NCBI GenBank assembly: GCA_027858995.1
Contig: JAQIBP010000140.1
Location: 1 to 46,809 of the forward strand
Length of the DNA stretch: 46,809 bases
Origin: Deltaproteobacteria bacterium
Lineage (GTDB): Bacteria; Desulfobacterota; Desulfobacteria; Desulfobacterales; Desulfobacteraceae
Reading direction: 5' to 3'
Shown here: piece by piece, positions 11,512-30,749 of the stretch
Numbering within the stretch: position 1 is the stretch's first letter
How the letters are laid out: each line of letters starts with the position of its first letter
The notes under the pieces: model-generated
The model's database searches: none
Told to the model about the DNA's origin: nothing
The model's input: the letters and a program-made list of their open reading frames with translations, nothing else
Program-made: the position numbers and the translations under genes

Positions 11512-13446
11512 TTACCCCAGATACAATTTTAAAAAAATATTGACCACTCCAAGGGCAAATAAGGCTGGGAATAAAATTGCTTTTGATCTCTTTTTTGGGT
11601 CCGGGATCATGCCGTGGAGGGCAAGAGTGGTTCTGTTTAAACCAAAATAGAGACCTGTCAGCAGCAACAAACCTTGAATCAAGGGAATAACCTCAGGATG
11701 AAAGGGGTTGAACTGAACATGGGCAGTGCCGAAAATATTCCATCCATATCCCAGTGGATCAGACAGTACATTCAGCACATAGGAATAATTGACCATGATG
11801 GAAGGCAGGCTGAAAGCAATCCACGCAAAAATACCCACGGGTATCAGCATATAGGAAAGCTGGAGCACAAGATTCTTTACACTGCCTTTAAATCCTGCAA
11901 ATCTTGCTGACAGGCGTGAAAGGAAAATGAATATTCCGGGAAATACAGCCAGTGACATGGTATATAAAACAAAAAGATAAATCAGGAAAGGCAAAACCTG
12001 TTTGGATTCAGTTATATTGGCTGCCTGCTTGATAAATTCCCAGGGTCCAAGCATGGTAATACTGAAAGCTATGGCCACCACCAGCATGATGATGATGTTA
12101 TACATTTCTGAATAATCTTTAATATTCCTGTCAGATCCAAATGGTCTTAAAAAGAACCCTATATTATTTTCCGGACATGTTTTGACGCATTCCGTGCAAA
12201 GTCCACAAAAATTATTCCTATCCATGGTACCGGGATATTGATTCCAGGGGCATCCCCAGCCATCGGGGCTTCCCTTGAGGCAGCATTTATTTTTGTGTTT
12301 TTCACAAACTTTTTTGTCAATGACACGCAGGGCAGTCATGGATGCCATGGAATAATTGCCTAGGAAACCGCCCACAGGGCACAGGTAAAGACAGAATACC
12401 CGGTTTCTGAAAATAAATGCCATAATCAGGGTGGCCGTCAGAATCAGTAAAAACAAAACCGCAGTGGCCACAGGTCTTGTGATCAAAATAATGCCAAAAG
12501 AAATCATTGCCAGGAAAAGGATATTTTGAAGCCACATGTTTCTCAAAGGTCTTGGCCAGTCCAGACCAAGGCCGGTAAAATTGTGATGTTTACCCCGGAT
12601 CGGTTTTTTAATAAATCCAACAGCAGTAAAAGCTTTTCTGCTGATCCATTCTCCTGGTGCAGGCAAAGGGCAGATCTGGCACCAGAGCCTTGCCCCCAGG
12701 GGAACAAAAACAGATTTCAATAGAAACCACCACAAAATCCAGACAATGATAATAGCGATATTATGATTTCCCACGGGTGTACCCTTGAGGCTTGCAATAA
12801 TAAAAAGGTAAAAGATCACAAATCCCGGGAAAACAAGGAAAAACTGGAAACTTCTTCTTTTAAACAGCCATTTGAGACCTGGAATGATATCAAACAGGTT
12901 TACAACTCTTTTTTTTTGGTTTTTTCTGGAATTATGGTTTGCACCAAACCATATGAAGAGGCTTGCAACAAGCCAGATGGAAAGAGATACCATGGTGTGA
13001 TACAAGGTGTTGGGTGCCACAATCAGTTCACCTGTCATGAAAGGATGGAGATTGCCGCAGACCCTGGTACAGCGGAAGATAAACTTGCCTGCCTTGTCTG
13101 CAATAAACTCTATTTCTCTGATTTTATCCCAGTCTGCATGGATGATGCCGTCATCATCTTCCCATTCATATTTCTGGAATGCAATACCTTCTTGTTTGAT
13201 GATAAACTCAACAGGATAACCATCCAGATAAAACCCGTGGGTAACATCTTTTGAAGTGGGTTTGATAATAATGGTGTCACCCTTGTTGGCAAAGATCCTT
13301 CCAGGGGTATACCCATATTTTTTTGCTGTCAGCTCCACAACCCGTGTCTGAGGTTCAATAAATTTTTCTGCAAATAACTTTGGTAATCCAAGAGCGGCAA
13401 AAAAGAGAATCGCAATAATGACAAGCCTTGTAAATTTCAATTTCAT
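11512..13446 (-). CDS. Membrane polyferredoxin with N-terminal CuA-type cupredoxin domain (NosR/NapH/CcoG-like)
   Basis: 644 residues. After a signal-anchor (about 5-27) comes a periplasmic cupredoxin domain with H70 (DVTHGF) and CTRVCGNLHPFM: C126-x3-C130-x3-H134-x2-M137, the CuA ligand pattern of cytochrome oxidase subunit II and N2O reductase. Then follow several membrane helices with polyferredoxin motifs WCQICPLPAPGEW and FCLYLCPVGG, a Cys-rich loop (CEKHKNKCC..GWGCPW), one ferredoxin motif CGLCTECVKTCPENN, and more helices. Such proteins pass electrons from quinol across the membrane (NosR, NapH) or reduce copper (CcoG). A CuA domain fused to this scaffold is unusual. It is last in the copper/haem operon, 36 bases after the thioredoxin gene. 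Confidence 0.8.
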   Translation of the reverse strand: MKLKFTRLVIIAILFFAALGLPKLFAEKFIEPQTRVVELTAKKYGYTPGRIFANKGDTIIIKPTSKDVTHGFYLDGYPVEFIIKQEGIAFQKYEWEDDDGIIHADWDKIREIEFIADKAGKFIFRCTRVCGNLHPFMTGELIVAPNTLYHTMVSLSIWLVASLFIWFGANHNSRKNQKKRVVNLFDIIPGLKWLFKRRSFQFFLVFPGFVIFYLFIIASLKGTPVGNHNIAIIIVWILWWFLLKSVFVPLGARLWCQICPLPAPGEWISRKAFTAVGFIKKPIRGKHHNFTGLGLDWPRPLRNMWLQNILFLAMISFGIILITRPVATAVLFLLILTATLIMAFIFRNRVFCLYLCPVGGFLGNYSMASMTALRVIDKKVCEKHKNKCCLKGSPDGWGCPWNQYPGTMDRNNFCGLCTECVKTCPENNIGFFLRPFGSDRNIKDYSEMYNIIIMLVVAIAFSITMLGPWEFIKQAANITESKQVLPFLIYLFVLYTMSLAVFPGIFIFLSRLSARFAGFKGSVKNLVLQLSYMLIPVGIFAWIAFSLPSIMVNYSYVLNVLSDPLGYGWNIFGTAHVQFNPFHPEVIPLIQGLLLLTGLYFGLNRTTLALHGMIPDPKKRSKAILFPALFALGVVNIFLKLYLG

Positions 13447-13482
13447 ATTTTGTTTTCCAGGATCTTTTTTATCTGTGATGGA

Positions 13483-14040
13483 TTAATAATATTGTATCAA
13501 ATATTTAAACAGATTTACAGATTCTCTGCTGTCCCAATTACGGGCTCCCATTGCCTTTCCCATTAATCCACCATCCCGGCCTAAAATAAATGTGGTTGGT
13601 ATGGAGCGTATTCCAAAAGCCCGGCCCATGCCTCCTTTTTTATCCAGCAGGATTTTAAAGGATAGGTCATGTTTGAGAATAAATTTTTCAACCTTTTGTT
13701 TTGATTCTTTCAAATCCAGAGCAATAATCATTAGATCTTTACTGCCAAGTTTTTTATGGAGTCTTTCAATATCCGGCATTTCAAAAATACAATCCGGGCA
13801 CCAGGTTGTCCAGAAATTTAAGAATAGGATTTTACCCTTGAAATCAGACAGTTTTACGCTGTTCCCTTTCATATCTATCAGATCATCGTCGGCCACAGGA
13901 GCAATTTTTGCCAGCCTGATAATGCCAAGTGCCTTGAACTTTTCTTCAAGAATACCATCTTTGGAATCAGCACACACGGCTTGAACTGAAAGTTGTAAAA
14001 AAATCAATATAAATACAACAGACCGGAATATTAGATTCAT
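13483..14040 (-). CDS. TlpA/ResA-type periplasmic thioredoxin
   Basis: The 185-residue protein has a signal peptide (about 1-24, ending AVCA) and a thioredoxin fold with NFWTTWCPDC near residues 76-84, followed by GIRSIPTTFILGRDG containing the cis-Pro. TlpA/ResA proteins reduce disulfides in apocytochrome c or keep CuA cysteines reduced for copper loading. Both substrates are encoded in this cluster. CcdA just upstream (14 bases) would supply electrons from the cytoplasm. Confidence 0.88.
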   Translation of the reverse strand: MNLIFRSVVFILIFLQLSVQAVCADSKDGILEEKFKALGIIRLAKIAPVADDDLIDMKGNSVKLSDFKGKILFLNFWTTWCPDCIFEMPDIERLHKKLGSKDLMIIALDLKESKQKVEKFILKHDLSFKILLDKKGGMGRAFGIRSIPTTFILGRDGGLMGKAMGARNWDSRESVNLFKYLIQYY

Positions 14041-14054
14041 AGCAATATAAAGTG

Positions 14055-14798
14055 TTAAAGGCTAAATAGGTTGAAAAATGTGAACCAGCCGGTTATGGTC
14101 GCAAAGGAGTCATTGAAAATCAGAATACCTATAAAAATCAGAATCAGACCTGTACCCTTTTCAATGAGCCAGAGATATTTTTTGATTTTATTAAAAAAAA
14201 TGAAAAAATACTGGATAAACAGAGCAGTAAGTATAAATGGAATACCAAGACCTGCTGAATAAATCAACAGGAGTTTTATTCCTGAACCCATCTGATCAAC
14301 TGTACCTGCATAGGTCAAAATAGCACCCAGTATGGGACCGGTACACGGAGTCCATCCAAAGGCAAAGGCCATGCCCAGAATCAGGGAGAAGAATGCACCT
14401 TTTTTCTTGACATCCATTTGAAATCTTGTGTCTTTTAAAAACAGGTTAATCTTGAAAATTCCTGTTTTAACAAGCCCGAAAAAAATAATGATCACACCGG
14501 ATAACTTTGTCAGTACCCCAAGGTTGGTTAATGCAAGGGAACCAAGCCAGGTGACAGAAGCTCCCAGAACAACAAATACAATGGAAAAGCCTGATACAAA
14601 AAGTATGGCATTTAAAAGGATATAGAGACTTTTTTTATCAAACATTTTCGGCTGTTTTTCCGCTCTAGCCATTTCAGTGACAGAAATTCCTGAAATAAAC
14701 GAGACATAGCCGGGTACCAGGGGGAGTACACAAGGTGATAAAAAAGATACAATCCCGGCGGTCAATGCCATGACCATTGATATTTCCATTGTAATCAT
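14055..14798 (-). CDS. ccdA: CcdA/DsbD-type transmembrane thiol reductase
   Basis: 247 residues with about six transmembrane helices. The two conserved cysteines are in SFLSPCVLPLVPGYVSF (N-terminal) and GWTPCTGPILGAIL, the CcdA/DsbD hallmark. It carries electrons from cytoplasmic thioredoxin to periplasmic thiol proteins, here most likely the TlpA-type protein encoded next. Its start abuts the stop of the upstream cupredoxin gene, indicating coupled expression. Confidence 0.92.
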   Translation of the reverse strand: MITMEISMVMALTAGIVSFLSPCVLPLVPGYVSFISGISVTEMARAEKQPKMFDKKSLYILLNAILFVSGFSIVFVVLGASVTWLGSLALTNLGVLTKLSGVIIIFFGLVKTGIFKINLFLKDTRFQMDVKKKGAFFSLILGMAFAFGWTPCTGPILGAILTYAGTVDQMGSGIKLLLIYSAGLGIPFILTALFIQYFFIFFNKIKKYLWLIEKGTGLILIFIGILIFNDSFATITGWFTFFNLFSL

Positions 14799-15419
14799 CT
14801 ATTTATACAGCACCCCGGGTGCTCCCCTTTTAAGCTTGATGGTCATTGATTTGCTCTCAGCCTGGGTCAGGTCCAGAGCAATTTTTCTGTTTTTAAGCTT
14901 TTCATGCCATGTTTTCAGATAGTATTTCCCCGTATCAAGGTCAGTTATATCAATTTTAAAATAACCTTTTTTATCAGTCAGGGCATAGTAGGGGCTTTTC
15001 ATGACAAGGATATAGGCGATCATTTCTGCATGAACATCGCACCGCAGCTCAACAATGCCGGGTTTATCAAAAGTGACCTTGTGGCTTTGCCCTGGTTTGT
15101 AACTGCCGAAATTAAATTTTTTTGTCCTGGAGAGAGAAAACACATTGTGAGCCACCTTGTCACTATTGGGAAAGGAAACTATACCGTTCCTGGGTATTAC
15201 AAGTACATGGGGCAAAAAAGTCAAATTATTCTGGTCCATTACAAATTCATTTTGTGGTGGTCTTGAAAAGTCAGGGGTTTTTGTAAGATATACCAATATG
15301 TTATCAGCTTTTCTCAATCCTTGTGGTGACACTTTGCCTGATAAATCAGCAGCAATTGCAAGTGAGGTTGACATACAACACAATACTATGGTGAAAATGA
15401 ATAGAAACTTGTTGTTCAA
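14799..15419 (-). CDS. Type-1 copper cupredoxin (plastocyanin-like) with C-terminal CnaB/carboxypeptidase-regulatory-like domain
   Basis: 206 residues with a signal peptide (about 1-24). The cupredoxin domain has ligands H91 (VAHNVFS), C127, H130 and M133 (ELRCDVHAEM), a complete type-1 site. After about residue 140 comes a small beta domain (ALTDKKGYFKIDITDLDTGKYYLKTWHEK) typical of carboxypeptidase-regulatory or methylamine-utilisation-like proteins. It is likely a periplasmic electron carrier. It lies 18 bases after the pentahaem cytochrome gene, suggesting the two are partners (inference). Confidence 0.85.
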   Translation of the reverse strand: MNNKFLFIFTIVLCCMSTSLAIAADLSGKVSPQGLRKADNILVYLTKTPDFSRPPQNEFVMDQNNLTFLPHVLVIPRNGIVSFPNSDKVAHNVFSLSRTKKFNFGSYKPGQSHKVTFDKPGIVELRCDVHAEMIAYILVMKSPYYALTDKKGYFKIDITDLDTGKYYLKTWHEKLKNRKIALDLTQAESKSMTIKLKRGAPGVLYK

Positions 15420-15437
15420 TTGTATTCTCCTTTTTTA

Positions 15438-17123
15438 TTACCAGGCCCGGGTGGTGATTATTATATCTTTTATACCCCATTTTTTTATCCTGGCCAGGGA
15501 TTTTATAAATGGTCTGTAAATCAATTTTGCTTCAGCCACAGGTTCATCATCAGGGTTTTTAATTTTAAACTGAAAATTTAAGGTTACAGTGGTTTTAGGA
15601 CGAATTCTTGTATCTTTATCAACAGAATCTGCTTTCCAGAATGGAACATTGATATTTCCCTGTTTATCTTTCAATACCTTTGAAAATACTTTGCCAGGAA
15701 GGCCTGAATAGTTGCCACCGTCTTTGTTCCCGACACCTGTCCATGTTGGCAGGGTTTCACCTTTAATCAATTTCAACTCATGACCCTGGGAATCTGCAGC
15801 AGAGACAAGAAGCATGACCTGGCGCATGGGGTCTCCCGTGGGAATCCAGTGGCCGCCGTTTGTATTTGTAATAAATACCTTTACATTAAGAATATCATTT
15901 TGAATCTCGCCATCAATTTCCAGTGAAAGAGCTGTTTTCAACTGTGTTTCAGTTCCGCCGTCAAAATGATGGGGCCTTATGTTTTCAGGATCACGTTTTA
16001 CCCCCCACATGCTTCTGGCATTACCATCAATTATATAGTTGTCGTAGGGCAGCATCTCTTTGCGCCAGCTCATATGGCAGTCCTGGCATTTTTTGCCCTT
16101 ATTTCCGTCATCGGCAGGCAGGGAATTCTGCCAGCCTCTCCACTCCTGGTAAGTAGTCTGGATTGGAATTATGGTATCATCTCCGATATTAAAATTTTTC
16201 CATTCTGTATCTGTATATACTTTTTTCCTGTCCCAGGAAGTTTTACTCTCTGTTTTCCCAACCTGGCTGTGGCAGGCAGCACAATAATTTCCCTTGTCAA
16301 AAACAGGGCTGTAGGATGCTGACATGACAGGATTGACCACATCATCGTAGGGGCCGAATACCATTATGGAATTTCCTCTATACGGGGTTTGACGTTTCAT
16401 GACAGGTTTAAAAAGGCTTGGCGTATCATTGGTTTTGACTGTTTTCCTGATTTTATGGCAGAAATCGCAGGAAATTCCGTCCCATTCGGTTTTGGGAGAC
16501 CAGAGTGCGGTTTCAATATCCTTTGCACCACCTTTTGTTGCTGCAGCTGAAGGAGCGTGGCACACAGTGCAGTCACCACTTTTATCAGGATTGTCAAGCT
16601 TGAACCCCGGGCCTGCCAGATTACGACCTGTGGCATCTGTGCCATTATACATATTCAGCACTTTTACATTTGAGGTGGTATGGGCCATTTTGGATTTGTC
16701 CCAGTATTTGGCCAGAGTGTTATGACACCGGGCGCAGACAGCCGGAGAAATGAATCGGTAAGCCTGATTGTCCTTGTTTGGTATGGGGTAAAGTCTGATA
16801 TTGGCATTTTGACTTCCAAGCCACACTGAGATAGAATTATTGAACCATCCATCCTTACCTGCTGTGATGGTTAAAGGTTGGCTGGAGAACGAGGGTGTTT
16901 CAAGGACAAACCTCCCATTTTTATCTGTAAGGGAAAAGCTCGAATTTCCTGAAATCCTGACACGGGCATCGGCAACCATTCCAAAGTCAGATGCCACAAC
17001 GCCTGTAATAACGGATATGTTTTTTTTCCTGGAAGACAATGCCGGCGTAGGTATGATCAAAGAAATAGCTATGATCACCAAAGCAACATTAAGCAAAATA
17101 GTACAAAATCCCGTCTTTTTCAT
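15438..17123 (-). CDS. Pentahaem cytochrome c (c554/multihaem family) with N-terminal beta domain
   Basis: 561 residues with a signal peptide (about 1-30). Residues about 36-110 form a carboxypeptidase-regulatory-like beta domain (VRISGNSSFSLTDKNGRF). Five CxxCH sites follow: CARCH (C130), CTVCH, CDFCH, CAACH and CQDCH. Candidate distal haem ligands include MAHTT and RPHHFDGG. The C-terminal region contains GGHWIPTGDPMRQV, a motif I associate with cytochrome c554-like multihaem proteins. No NrfA-type CxxCK is seen. It may be an electron conduit or a reductase; the substrate is unknown. It is the largest periplasmic component and so the best candidate catalytic subunit of the cluster. Confidence 0.85.
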   Translation of the reverse strand: MKKTGFCTILLNVALVIIAISLIIPTPALSSRKKNISVITGVVASDFGMVADARVRISGNSSFSLTDKNGRFVLETPSFSSQPLTITAGKDGWFNNSISVWLGSQNANIRLYPIPNKDNQAYRFISPAVCARCHNTLAKYWDKSKMAHTTSNVKVLNMYNGTDATGRNLAGPGFKLDNPDKSGDCTVCHAPSAAATKGGAKDIETALWSPKTEWDGISCDFCHKIRKTVKTNDTPSLFKPVMKRQTPYRGNSIMVFGPYDDVVNPVMSASYSPVFDKGNYCAACHSQVGKTESKTSWDRKKVYTDTEWKNFNIGDDTIIPIQTTYQEWRGWQNSLPADDGNKGKKCQDCHMSWRKEMLPYDNYIIDGNARSMWGVKRDPENIRPHHFDGGTETQLKTALSLEIDGEIQNDILNVKVFITNTNGGHWIPTGDPMRQVMLLVSAADSQGHELKLIKGETLPTWTGVGNKDGGNYSGLPGKVFSKVLKDKQGNINVPFWKADSVDKDTRIRPKTTVTLNFQFKIKNPDDEPVAEAKLIYRPFIKSLARIKKWGIKDIIITTRAW

Positions 17124-17175
17124 TAACAGCCCCCTGGTTGATATATTTTGATTTGAAAATTAATAAAGTGCAGTT

Positions 17176-17640
17176 CTAAGCTGTAACAATAATTGTCCCA
17201 AACATATTTTCATGATGGCTGCCGCAAATAGCATTACAGGCAAATGTAAAAGTGCCTGACCTGTCCGCTACAAAAGAAACTGTGGAAGGCTTGCCAGGAT
17301 GAATTCCATCATTGATGAATATACCAAATCCTTTGAGGCTGAACCCATGCACAACATCACTGCTGGTCAGCTTGAGTACAACATTATCTCCTTTACGTAC
17401 CCGGATAACCGGCAGAGTTTGTTTTTTGGGAATCAGATTGTCCATGAGGATATCCAAAGCATGAATCTCCCCAAGAACCCAACCTTTCTCTGTATGACCA
17501 GTCAGATGAAAGACCTTTGTCTCCCTGGGAATTTTTTTGCTCCAGACATATCGGTCATAGGCAGATATGCAAAAGGGAAGAGCAGCAATAATAAACACTA
17601 CCAGCAATAAATAGCATAGATCTGCTTTTTTGAGATTCAT
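17176..17640 (-). CDS. Membrane-anchored CuA-type cupredoxin (cytochrome oxidase subunit II-like)
   Basis: 154 residues with one N-terminal membrane anchor (about 9-28) and a cupredoxin domain with H98 (VVHGFS) and CNAICGSHHENM: C135-x3-C139-x3-H143-x2-M146, the full CuA ligand set. It resembles the soluble domain of oxidase subunit II, but no subunit I haem-copper oxidase gene lies nearby. The CuA centre suggests one-electron transfer to a partner such as the pentahaem cytochrome encoded next (52 bases). It is paralogous in design to the N-terminal domain of the polyferredoxin in the same operon. Confidence 0.88.
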   Translation of the reverse strand: MNLKKADLCYLLLVVFIIAALPFCISAYDRYVWSKKIPRETKVFHLTGHTEKGWVLGEIHALDILMDNLIPKKQTLPVIRVRKGDNVVLKLTSSDVVHGFSLKGFGIFINDGIHPGKPSTVSFVADRSGTFTFACNAICGSHHENMFGTIIVTA

Positions 17641-17663
17641 CTCCTTTATCTCCCGGTTATAAA

Positions 17664-18023
17664 TCAGTTTAACAGCATTAGACGGCCTGAGTATTTATCC
17701 ACTCCAAGAAGCTGAACCACTTCATCATTTTGATTGATGATTTCTACCTCAAAAAAACCACCGGCATCATTTACATTGGCAATGCCAAGATCAGGGTTAA
17801 GCTTTTTTATATGATTGGACACAATATTCTTTGCCTGCTCAAGTTCAACGGCTGATGCCGTCTGGTTGGATGAATAAGCCGCTTGTCTCTTTGGCACATA
17901 ATCACTACCCCCGGAATTTCCAAACCCACAGGCCATTGCATTTAAAGGAAGCAAAAAGATTGCTCCGACCAAAAGAAAACCTAAACTTTTTATTATTGTT
18001 AAATTAAAGGTTTTTTTACTCAT
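17664..18023 (-). CDS. Secreted PepSY-like small protein
   Basis: 119 residues with a signal peptide ending near NAMACGFG. The mature part has a Ser/Gln/Ala-rich linker, then a helix (ELEQAKNIVSNHIKKLNPDLG) and beta strands ending VQLLGVDKYSGRLMLLN, reminiscent of a PepSY-type fold. No haem or clear metal motif was seen apart from the single Cys at the mature N-terminus. It is first in the copper/haem operon, 23 bases before the CuA protein gene, so it may be an accessory or regulatory subunit. Function is not assigned. Confidence 0.65.
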   Translation of the reverse strand: MSKKTFNLTIIKSLGFLLVGAIFLLPLNAMACGFGNSGGSDYVPKRQAAYSSNQTASAVELEQAKNIVSNHIKKLNPDLGIANVNDAGGFFEVEIINQNDEVVQLLGVDKYSGRLMLLN

Positions 18024-18276: not shown

Positions 18277-19065
18277 TTATGATCCAATCTCATTGTTTTG
18301 TGCCAATGATCTTTTTCCCAGGACAGCCATTAAAATCAATGCTGTGAAAATACCAAAGACCCCAATGGACTGGGCTGCTGAAATATTGCTCAAATAAATG
18401 AGCTTATCTGCTCTGAAATGTTCCACAAATATACGGCCCGAAGAATACAAAATTATATATAACAAGAAGAGGTTGCCCATTGTTTTAATTTTTTTTCTCA
18501 AGATCCATAATACCCCGAAAATAACAAGGTTAAATACCATTTCATAAAGCTGGGTGGGATGAAGAGTTTGTCCAGGAAACATTTGACCGGCCGGGCTTTG
18601 TTGGGAATAAATCATTCCCCACGGCCTATCTGTTGGATAACCGTGGGCATCCCCGTTAAGAAAACATCCGATTCTGCCAATTGCCTGGCCAAGAATAAGT
18701 GACGGAGCAAGAGTGTCTGCAAATTTCCAGAAAGAGATCCTTTGCTGCCTGGTATATACAAAACCGGCAAGCAAGCCTCCTAAAATAGCACCATGTATGG
18801 CCAGTCCTCCTTCCCAGATTGCCAGAACTGAAAGAGGGTTTTCCCAAAACAAAGCTGGCTGTGTAAATGCAATGTAATAAAACCTTGCACCTGCAACAGC
18901 ACAAATCATAGCAATTAAAAAAAAATCTTCAATTTTTCCTTTGGCAATCTGGTTTCTGTCTGCCTCTTTTTTTGCTATCCATAACCCTGCCATGCATGCC
19001 AGGGCAATCATGATACCATACCATCTGAGAGTTAAAGGGCCAATTTGTAAAAAAACCGGGTGCAT
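18277..19065 (-). CDS. lgt: Prolipoprotein diacylglyceryl transferase
   Basis: 262 residues with about seven transmembrane helices. Key motifs are RWYGIMIALA, GRIGCFLNGDAHG (the Lgt signature with the essential Arg and Asn), HPTQLYE and EHFRADK. It transfers diacylglycerol from phosphatidylglycerol to the lipobox cysteine of preprolipoproteins at the inner membrane. A housekeeping gene, separated from the copper/haem cluster by about 250 bases that contain that cluster's promoter candidate. Confidence 0.95.
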   Translation of the reverse strand: MHPVFLQIGPLTLRWYGIMIALACMAGLWIAKKEADRNQIAKGKIEDFFLIAMICAVAGARFYYIAFTQPALFWENPLSVLAIWEGGLAIHGAILGGLLAGFVYTRQQRISFWKFADTLAPSLILGQAIGRIGCFLNGDAHGYPTDRPWGMIYSQQSPAGQMFPGQTLHPTQLYEMVFNLVIFGVLWILRKKIKTMGNLFLLYIILYSSGRIFVEHFRADKLIYLSNISAAQSIGVFGIFTALILMAVLGKRSLAQNNEIGS

Positions 19066-19114: not shown

Positions 19115-19456
19115 TTAGTCAAAATCTTTGATGACTTCTCTTTTTGATTCAAATTCAGTTATATTAATCTCTCCTTTTGCAAATCGTTCTTTAAGAATTT
19201 CCATGGCACTTTTTTGAGTTTGGGAACTATTGTTTTTATCTTTAGACAGATTTATAACCCAGCGAATAACAAGAATGAGTATCCAAAGCACCAGGCCCCA
19301 AAATACAAACATCATCCAGCCCGTGCCTGAACCCATCATATGATAGTTCCCGTACATTGTTCCCTGATCCGGCCAATTTGCAAAAGCAGAGCCAAAACTG
19401 AAAAGGGAAAATAAAAAGATAGTTAAAAGTTTAATTATAAAATTCTTATTAATCAT
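19115..19456 (-). CDS. Small membrane protein with SHOCT domain
   Basis: 113 residues from the ATG at 19456, chosen because AAGGAGG lies 6 bases before it; a longer frame to 19474 lacks this site. There is a signal-like segment (about 1-26), a Met/Gly/Tyr-rich exposed loop (GTMYGNYHMMGSGTG) that could bind metal, a transmembrane helix (FVFWGLVLWILILVIRW), and a C-terminal SHOCT motif (AMEILKERFAKGEINITEFESKR). Such proteins often neighbour copper or heavy-metal genes. Here it sits between a YHS-domain gene and lgt. Confidence 0.75.
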   Translation of the reverse strand: MINKNFIIKLLTIFLFSLFSFGSAFANWPDQGTMYGNYHMMGSGTGWMMFVFWGLVLWILILVIRWVINLSKDKNNSSQTQKSAMEILKERFAKGEINITEFESKREVIKDFD

Positions 19457-19511
19457 GTGAACCTCCTTAAGCAAATATTCCTGGCAGCTTTATACCAGGG
19501 ATTTAAAGTCG

Positions 19512-19772
19512 TTAACCACAACATTGAGGTTTCCCTTTGGTAACCTTGTTCAGACGTTTAAGATAATTCTTCCACCATCTTTTCAGAAAAAAAGAACTCT
19601 GTTTTAGATAGGCTTCAGGTGTTTTTTGAAATTTATCACGACAATCCTGAGCACAAAAATAATATGTGTTATTATTCCAGGTAGCTGTGATTTTATTATT
19701 TTTAGAGAAAATATCCATTCCACATACAGGATCTTTCAAAACAACTTTTTGATTTGTGTGTAAATGATTCAT
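19512..19772 (-). CDS. YHS-domain protein
   Basis: 86 residues. The YHS motif is clear: KDPVCGMDIFSKNNKITATW, NNTYYFCAQDCRDKFQKTPEAYL. This metal-binding domain is usual at the N-terminus of copper P-type ATPases or stand-alone near heavy-metal resistance genes. The C-terminus is basic and ends in PQCCG. It lies 55 bases before the SHOCT gene on the same strand and is probably co-transcribed with it. A copper-handling role fits the adjacent cupredoxin cluster (inference). Confidence 0.8.
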   Translation of the reverse strand: MNHLHTNQKVVLKDPVCGMDIFSKNNKITATWNNNTYYFCAQDCRDKFQKTPEAYLKQSSFFLKRWWKNYLKRLNKVTKGKPQCCG

Positions 19773-30557: not shown

Positions 30558-30649
30558 TGGCGGAGAAAGAGAGATTCGAACTCTCGATGGACTATAACGC
30601 CCATACTCGCTTAGCAGGCGAGCGCCTTCAGCCACTCGGCCATTTCTCC
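30558..30649 (-). tRNA. tRNA-Ser(GCU)
   Basis: 92 bases including encoded CCA. The acceptor arm GGAGAAA pairs with TTTCTCC. The anticodon stem-loop CTCGCCTGCTAAGCGAG exposes GCT. A long variable arm (TATGGGCGTTATAGTCCA) and GAGAGTTCGAATCTCTC T-arm follow, all class II Ser features. Integration target of the zeta-like islet. Confidence 0.96.
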
Positions 30650-30661
30650 GCATTGTAATAT

Positions 30662-30749
30662 TGGCGGAGGAGGTAGGATTCGAACCCACGAAGCTTTGAC
30701 ACTTAACGGTTTTCAAGACCGCCGCCTTCAGCCACTCGGCCACTCCTCC
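30662..30749 (-). tRNA. tRNA-Ser(UGA)
   Basis: 88 bases including CCA. The acceptor GGAGGAG pairs with CTCCTCC. The anticodon arm CGGTCTTGAAAACCG exposes TGA, with a long variable arm and a GGGTTCGAATCC T-arm. It lies 12 bases upstream of tRNA-Ser(GCU) and is probably co-transcribed. Confidence 0.96.

Follow-up and report, generated by a model that had tools for sequence, protein, structure and literature searches.

A CuA domain fused to a NapH-like membrane iron-sulfur protein, encoded with a pentahaem cytochrome in Desulfobacula and its relatives

The window analysed here is a stretch of 46,809 nucleotides (contig JAQIBP010000140.1 of assembly GCA_027858995.1) from a genome (G000, 3.98 Mb, 97% complete) that its nearest kin suggest is Desulfobacula and whose host is, judging from that genus, probably a sulfate reducer. 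Between positions 11512 and 18023 it carries seven open reading frames (ORFs), all on the minus strand and with intergenic gaps of 0–52 bp, as an earlier note on this DNA had described. Two of the products hold CuA centres, one of them fused to a membrane iron-sulfur (Fe-S) protein, and a third is a cytochrome with five haems. From the first gene of the cluster onward the features are:

17664..18023, minus strand: small exported protein of 119 aa, with relatives at the same place in Desulfobacula loci
17176..17640, minus strand: membrane-anchored CuA protein of 154 aa with a COX2-like periplasmic domain (PF00116 and CuA ligands)
15438..17123, minus strand: PHC-like pentahaem c-type cytochrome of 561 aa with an Ig-like C-terminal domain (five CxxCH, match to 5ZE8)
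14799..15419, minus strand: type-1 cupredoxin of 206 aa with a TTG start (copper ligands, PDB matches)
14055..14798, minus strand: CcdA/DsbD-type membrane thiol-disulfide transporter (PF02683, DsbD_TM, 43.2 bits)
13483..14040, minus strand: TlpA/ResA-like periplasmic thioredoxin with WCPDC (PF00578, AhpC-TSA, 84.2 bits)
11512..13446, minus strand: NapH-like membrane Fe-S protein of 644 aa that carries a fused CuA domain (CuA motif, Fer4_5)

Textbooks place CuA centres in oxidases and in nitrous oxide (N2O) reductase. Here the motif C-x3-C-x3-H-x2-M is found twice, in the 644-aa protein (residue 126) and in the 154-aa protein (residue 135). A residue check together with alignments found the CuA, type-1 copper and five-haem sites where the earlier note had placed them, along with three Fe-S cysteine motifs. 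The CuA ligands are invariant in 25 of 25 aligned fused proteins (H70, C126, C130, H134 and M137) and in 9 of 9 aligned small CuA proteins (H98, C135, C139, H143 and M146), and so are the type-1 ligands H91/C127/H130/M133 in the nine cupredoxins aligned. Across 69 related loci, whose ORFs were chosen mechanically so that small or frameshifted genes can be missed, the CuA motif was present in 111 of the 159 ORFs that had the CuA or the fused-protein profile as their best match (the 48 without it include many weak matches and membrane-only pieces) and in none of the 784 other ORFs, which is more than chance. The small CuA protein passed the COX2 model PF00116 (35.3 bits, cut-off 22), matched oxidase CuA domains in the PDB (6ptt, E 8.2e-19; Thermus 2cua, E 1.2e-17) and stayed under the cut-off of the CoxB model (47.8 vs 147.7 bits). 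The cupredoxin had no match in the Pfam search; its PDB matches were to plastocyanin and blue-copper proteins, with a best E of 1.8e-6. The TlpA-like protein matched the ResA subfamily model at E 1.4e-29, under its cut-off, and TlpA is a thiol reducer of CuA cysteines ahead of copper loading. The first gene product (17664-18023) gave no match in the Pfam search and is PepSY-like in our own reading only.

The second CuA domain of the cluster is an N-terminal fusion to the membrane Fe-S protein (11512-13446). It matches the CuA domains of Thermus ba3 and NosZ by PDB sequence and by fold (AlphaFold model with a predicted local distance difference test, pLDDT, of 78 and a predicted template modelling score, pTM, of 0.84). 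The Fe-S motifs are CQICP (residue 256), CLYLCP (352) and CGLCTECVKTCP (414), and the cysteines C256/C259, C352/C356 and C414/C417/C420/C424 are invariant in all 25 fused proteins. The protein has the membrane segments, the CX2-3CP pair and the 4Fe-4S cysteines that mark the NapH/NosR superfamily, together with a Fer4_5 match of 22.4 bits. At E 0.01, 24 of the 25 fused proteins matched the NapH/MauN model (the window protein at E 0.0018), 23 matched the NapH quinol-dehydrogenase model and two matched the NosR model. What the earlier note had called a polyferredoxin membrane scaffold is in this sense supported by homology as NapH-like. NapH and NosR have been proposed, in the available part of PMC5928378, to carry quinol electrons to periplasmic reductases, and by this comparison the fused protein would be a NapH/NosR-like electron donor with a copper exit.

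The cytochrome carries five CxxCH motifs (residues 130, 185, 219, 281 and 346) that are invariant in 17 of 17 relatives, and c-type haem families were assigned to it in Pfam and NCBIfam. Among proteins of known structure it is closest to the Thermochromatium tepidum pentahaem c552 (5ZE8), with a sequence match of E 7.8e-12 in two stretches, and the same structure is the best fold match in the PDB (E 3.6e-11). The trait of the PHC family, five haems plus an Ig-like domain related to 5ZE8, is therefore present, and the ExtKL model matches at E 3e-11 with 42.5 bits, below its 250-bit cut-off. Outside the CxxCH motifs, only three histidines (H148, H385 and H425) are invariant in the 17 relatives for five haems, along with six methionines that could serve as haem ligands; because so few spare histidines are conserved, open haem sites are possible. 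The available part of PMC11976967 groups ExtKL, GSU2801 and the pentahaem proteins of cable bacteria, remarks that they resemble the T. tepidum protein, to which it gives no clear role, and classes the cable-bacterium PHC proteins as potentially catalytic because of five-coordinate haems; ExtKL, a PHC member, is proposed there to act in extracellular transfer.

The set is conserved, and is at the same time patchy. The nearest kin of the fused protein are six records with 80–83% identity, four of them Desulfobacula by title. Within this genus a full-length fused protein was present in 7 of 26 genomes, the host included; all seven keep the CuA protein, the pentahaem cytochrome and the cupredoxin (split over two contigs in G018), and six keep CcdA and TlpA, G014 being without the pair at the locus. 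Remnants of the fused protein were found as a piece at a contig end in G021 and as broken pieces inside contigs in G003 and G011, a sign that the set is also undergoing loss. These internal pieces lie at L035:6083-6689 (G003, which also has an intact copy) and at L034:3531-3827 (G011). Of 291 genomes of the order, 14 have the pentahaem gene, and 12 of these encode the fused protein on that contig too (cut by the contig end in G161); in a sample of the phylum 3 of 395 genomes matched the fused-protein alignment at E 1e-80. The 14 genomes of the order and five further Desulfobacula make up the 19 pentahaem genomes referred to below. Among the 69 related loci there are likewise 19 with the pentahaem gene, some of them cut by contig ends; a cupredoxin gene was seen in 18 of these and a second CuA gene in 14. 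The gene order is kept in Desulfobacula and in other Desulfobacterota.

A scan with the fused-protein alignment gave the 69 loci, which by their record titles belong to Desulfobacterota, Acidobacteriota, Planctomycetota, Myxococcota, Aminicenantes, FCPU426 and two archaeal metagenome-assembled genomes (MAGs). They represent fewer than 69 genomes, since by their titles five pairs share one (L038/L103, L043/L052, L044/L059, L053/L061 and L068/L078). Judging from these sequence relatives, among which are Acidobacteriota, Planctomycetota, Myxococcota and the two archaeal MAGs, the module is wider than the earlier note supposed. Composition was counted in 68 loci, leaving out L103 (broken pieces on the L038 contig): the CuA motif lay in the same ORF as the membrane part in 37 and did not in 31, another CuA protein was present in 58, a cupredoxin in 41 and the pentahaem gene in 19, each of which belongs to the 37. 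The copper part is therefore a wider module, consisting of a NapH-like Fe-S membrane protein with CuA fused or nearby and often a second CuA protein and a cupredoxin. In a tree of the membrane part, made by a quick method without bootstrap, 31 rows, mostly Desulfobacterota by title, formed one clade with a support of 100 in the Shimodaira–Hasegawa-like approximate likelihood ratio test (SH-aLRT). Partners in this clade, labelled by hand, were pentahaem cytochromes in 19 rows, octahaem or trihaem cytochromes in six, a molybdoenzyme in one and none seen in five (several at contig ends); the partner matches of L099, L082 and L104 are weak or fragmentary and the pentahaem gene of L065 is a 121-aa piece.

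Other partners were found over the whole set of loci. NosZ was present in two near-identical Acidobacteriota loci, in L080 over the cut-off (873 vs 625 bits) and in L083 divided between two ORFs, of which the first scored 438.6 bits and the second contains the NosZ propeller repeat. AioA was over the cut-off in four loci (L076, L081, L090 and L101), accompanied by AioB, over the cut-off in L076, the sole locus tested by profile, and identified by BLAST in the other three. NapA was over the cut-off in L060, octahaem cytochromes were found in four loci (L056, L057, L059 and L095), and dimethyl sulfoxide (DMSO) reductase-type molybdoenzymes, below the cut-off, in L061, L078, L102 and L105. Beside a separate CuA gene, a rubrerythrin/ferritin-like gene stands next to the Fe-S membrane gene in L072-L076, L081, L084, L086, L090 and L101 (called by Pfam in L090 and by BLAST in the rest), which are loci of Acidobacteriota, Planctomycetota and FCPU426. 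A second polyferredoxin without a match to the CuA motif lies near the cluster at L021:15760-17769, L023:3846-5858 and L050:7112-8956, in L021 and L023 together with a PCYCGC-type protein and TlpA-like pieces.

Cyc2-like porin-cytochromes were called in 11 of the 69 loci by a simple rule, F.R or P.F ahead of a single CxxCH. The published Cyc2 motif is AXPXFAR[Q/K][T/Y] before one CXXCH with PXL after it (PMC8406198, available part); by eye its strict form was found in 4 of the 11, a form allowing R for Q/K in 8 and the PXL in 9. Searches of the 11 proteins against Pfam and NCBIfam gave no match, and against the PDB their alignment matched one lipoprotein weakly (E 0.0039). The Cyc2-like gene lies within 1 kb upstream of the cupredoxin gene in ten loci and downstream of the second CuA gene in L086. 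Some of these loci adjoin NosL-, FtsX-, ABC- or FtrD-like genes, which would fit copper supply. In one genome (G479) there is a pentahaem module on contig C305, while contig C277 carries a Cyc2-like module of its own.

We propose that the cluster encodes an electron-transfer module of the NapH/NosR type in which CuA is the periplasmic exit and which serves the PHC-like cytochrome, and we give this reading a probability of roughly 0.55. Menaquinol or a cytoplasmic donor would reduce the membrane Fe-S protein, from which the electron would pass to the CuA of the same protein and then, relayed by the cupredoxin and the other CuA protein, to the pentahaem cytochrome; this in turn could reduce a high-potential periplasmic acceptor or pass the electron outward. 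CcdA and TlpA would maintain the cysteines of CuA in a reduced state ahead of copper loading, as suggested by TlpA biology and by the loci that hold them. The sequences themselves show which ligands and homologies are present, that gene order is conserved, and that related modules differ in their partner cytochromes or enzymes; the direction, the acceptor, the order of the carriers and the role of CcdA-TlpA are inferred. Outward flow taken by itself is somewhat more probable than not, being favoured by the reductase partners NosZ and NapA. Seen in this light the cluster is a variation on NapH/NosR, paired with a PHC-like cytochrome, and not a categorically new enzyme.

Several observations weigh against this proposal. 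The fused protein of the window, the only one compared with the NapH/MauN cut-off, reaches 17.8 bits where the cut-off is 213, and it is not one of the 23 hits of the quinol-dehydrogenase model. No FMN-binding Pfam domain was found in the 25 fused proteins (E 0.01) and no NapG beside the fused protein. The model of the pentahaem cytochrome is poor, with a mean pLDDT of 54, too weak for haem ligation, and with template modelling (TM) scores to 5ZE8 of 0.25/0.35 the relation to that structure rests mainly on sequence. A good fused protein is missing in 2 of the 14 pentahaem genomes of the order (G633, with a 3.1-kb contig, and G561, with a broken arrangement). CcdA was present in 9 and TlpA in 15 of the 19 pentahaem loci; both belong to the cluster, as the earlier note said, and its term "dedicated" is too strong for a pair that is not constant. 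The genome with both kinds of module, G479, is a MAG with 7% contamination. Finally, AioAB and Cyc2 are electron donors in known systems, and with them as partners inward flow may occur.

A bolder version of the proposal, which we regard as tentative and rather less probable than not, would see the CuA-equipped polyferredoxin as the core of an undescribed and widespread respiratory complex. Present in at least four bacterial phyla plus archaea, this complex would stand in the membrane where a haem-copper oxidase or cytochrome bc1 is otherwise expected, and its partners would be Cyc2-like, pentahaem, octahaem, arsenite-oxidase or N2O-reductase systems. In Desulfobacula it would make the PHC cytochrome a terminal reductase or a wire to the outside.

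The rival that survives best is the reverse path, electron uptake or extracellular exchange, in which the pentahaem cytochrome would take electrons from an outside donor, as Cyc2 does with Fe(II), and these would travel inward by way of the cupredoxin and CuA as far as the membrane Fe-S protein. The Cyc2-like genes next to the cupredoxin or, in L086, the second CuA gene point this way, as do the AioA loci, the extracellular role proposed for the PHC member ExtKL and the gene order cyc2-cyc1-cup-coxB-coxA of the rus operon (PMC10654088, available part). Nevertheless, a Cyc2-like gene is absent from the cluster and from 17 of the 19 pentahaem genomes. By textbook potentials, moreover, moving electrons from high-potential copper to menaquinone costs energy, and no gene that would supply it is visible here. 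We consider this uptake reading unlikely.

Three neighbouring genes lie upstream of the cluster in the window, and two of them, SHOCT and YHS, bear on a second rival:

18277..19065, minus strand: Lgt, a neighbour of uncertain membership (PF01790, 255 bits)
19115..19474, minus strand: small membrane protein with a SHOCT domain (PF09851, 28.2 bits), recurring around the cluster in relatives
19512..19772, minus strand: metal-associated YHS-domain protein (PF04945, 40.6 bits), recurring near the cluster

An Lgt gene is also close to the cluster in G005 and G014, with a broken piece in G011. Farther away, at 30558-30749, there is an adjacent pair of tRNA-Ser genes (GCT, TGA). Promoter and terminator scans gave 30 against 27.5 in shuffles and 14 against 8.7, and are not used as evidence. 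In plasmid searches the fused protein matched three records weakly, the pentahaem protein one and the CuA protein 25.

The YHS and SHOCT genes near the cluster, in the window and in relatives, could speak for copper homeostasis, in which the set would sense, reduce or store copper instead of respiring. CcoG, another polyferredoxin, is a cupric reductase, and single relatives have nearby a P-type ATPase with heavy-metal-associated (HMA) domains, a resistance-nodulation-division (RND) pump, multicopper oxidases, cation efflux or a heavy-metal-resistance protein, all counted without a control. However, copper genes are also expected beside a copper-demanding redox chain, and this setting would be explained by copper supply and by copper defence alike. 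The modules beside NosZ, NapA and AioAB fit respiration, and the copper-resistance systems known to us need neither a five-haem cytochrome nor two conserved CuA centres. We find a role in copper homeostasis quite improbable.

The search for a terminal enzyme covered the COX1 family and NosZ (CydA, NrfA and others were not searched). Neither is encoded inside the cluster, and cox and nos genes are not adjacent to it in the mapped pentahaem-type loci, as the earlier note had expected, apart from one gene for a qNOR-type nitric oxide reductase near L065. This gene (L065:13176-15449, with a NorB cytochrome-c-like domain and COX1) is on the opposite strand, some 1.3 kb beyond the fused-protein gene. 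COX1-family genes were found in 16 of the 19 pentahaem genomes, with no match in G004 and G005 (95 and 97% complete) and G041 (79%). They are of mixed types that by best score and ORF length fall at 466–494 bits in six genomes, 254–293 in nine and 182 (a 761-aa ORF) in one, and that we label aa3, cbb3 and qNOR. The genes of the first kind in G003, G013, G014 and G018 have, some 1.5 kb off, a separate match to the CuA end of the NosZ model. The COX1-family gene of the host is at L117 (G000:C118:33000-45000), where our reading of the ORFs is a cbb3-type oxidase with CcoO, alternative complex III and P-type ATPase genes. NosZ was above the cut-off in 1 of the 19 genomes (G622, on a contig other than that of the cluster); an N-terminal piece in G492 had 135.6 bits, under the cut-off, and none was found in the host genome. 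The NosZ of G622, a Desulfobacterales MAG, lies at L141 (G622:C439:10000-24000), behind genes that read as alternative complex III and away from the pentahaem cluster.

With COX1 missing from three of the 19 genomes and NosZ over the cut-off in one, neither of the two always accompanies the set. The earlier note had named a loss of conserved gene order and a known catalytic subunit always present with the cluster as findings that would speak against it; the order is conserved and no constant COX1 or NosZ was seen, so neither finding was made. In the order sample the COX1 family was present in 12 of 14 pentahaem genomes vs 118 of 277 others (Fisher p 0.0018, treating related genomes as independent and uncorrected for relatedness or genome size), and within the genus in 5 of 7 genomes with the set vs 9 of 19 without it (p 0.39). 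This enrichment hints at a life with oxidants, but names no partner. That the set is an accessory to, or feeds electrons into, an N2O reductase or haem-copper oxidase whose genes lie elsewhere, which the order-wide enrichment, the qNOR gene near L065, the NosZ of G622 and the piece in G492 might suggest, is very unlikely in view of the three genomes without a COX1 match, the mixed types, the value within the genus, a host oxidase that we read as cbb3-type, a kind without CuA, and a single NosZ over the cut-off on an off-cluster contig. As a general rule, an oxidase or NosZ accessory is rejected by the searches of the 19 genomes.

The NapH/NosR-type reading has consequences beyond this cluster. 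A CuA fused to a NapH-like protein without an adjacent oxidase would newly connect the quinone pool or the cytoplasm to periplasmic cytochromes. The PHC-like cytochromes, relatives of those of cable bacteria, gain a candidate membrane partner, and for anaerobes a connection of Cyc2-like proteins to the inner membrane is suggested. The earlier note had spoken of an undescribed pathway. Among the titles and abstracts listed by searches of open-licence literature, none describes such a CuA/NapH-like module, and to that extent the description stands; the cytochrome, however, resembles a described family, PHC. Sulfate-reducer MAGs from the Black Sea, Db. maris included, encode terminal oxidases and otr, and the word CuA is absent from the available part of that source (PMC8359478).

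Among known systems, COX2 (CoxB) and the CuA domain of NosZ share with our proteins the CuA ligand set and the fold, but there is no CoxA or NosZ in the window cluster. The Acidithiobacillus rus operon shares a cytochrome beside a cupredoxin and a CuA protein (PMC10654088, available part); the window cluster differs in having a polyferredoxin instead of coxA, and Cyc2-like genes only in related loci. NapH (with NapG) and NosR share two CX2-3CP motifs and a ferredoxin-type Fe-S region in a membrane protein, whereas the fused protein has CuA in place of the NapG partner or the FMN domain. The PHC proteins (T. tepidum c552 5ZE8, ExtKL and the sPHC/lPHC of cable bacteria) have the same five CxxCH motifs and Ig-like C-terminal domain. 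The window cytochrome differs from them in falling below the ExtKL cut-off, in about 125 residues ahead of the first haem, an extra domain by our reading, and in the company of CuA and cupredoxin genes.

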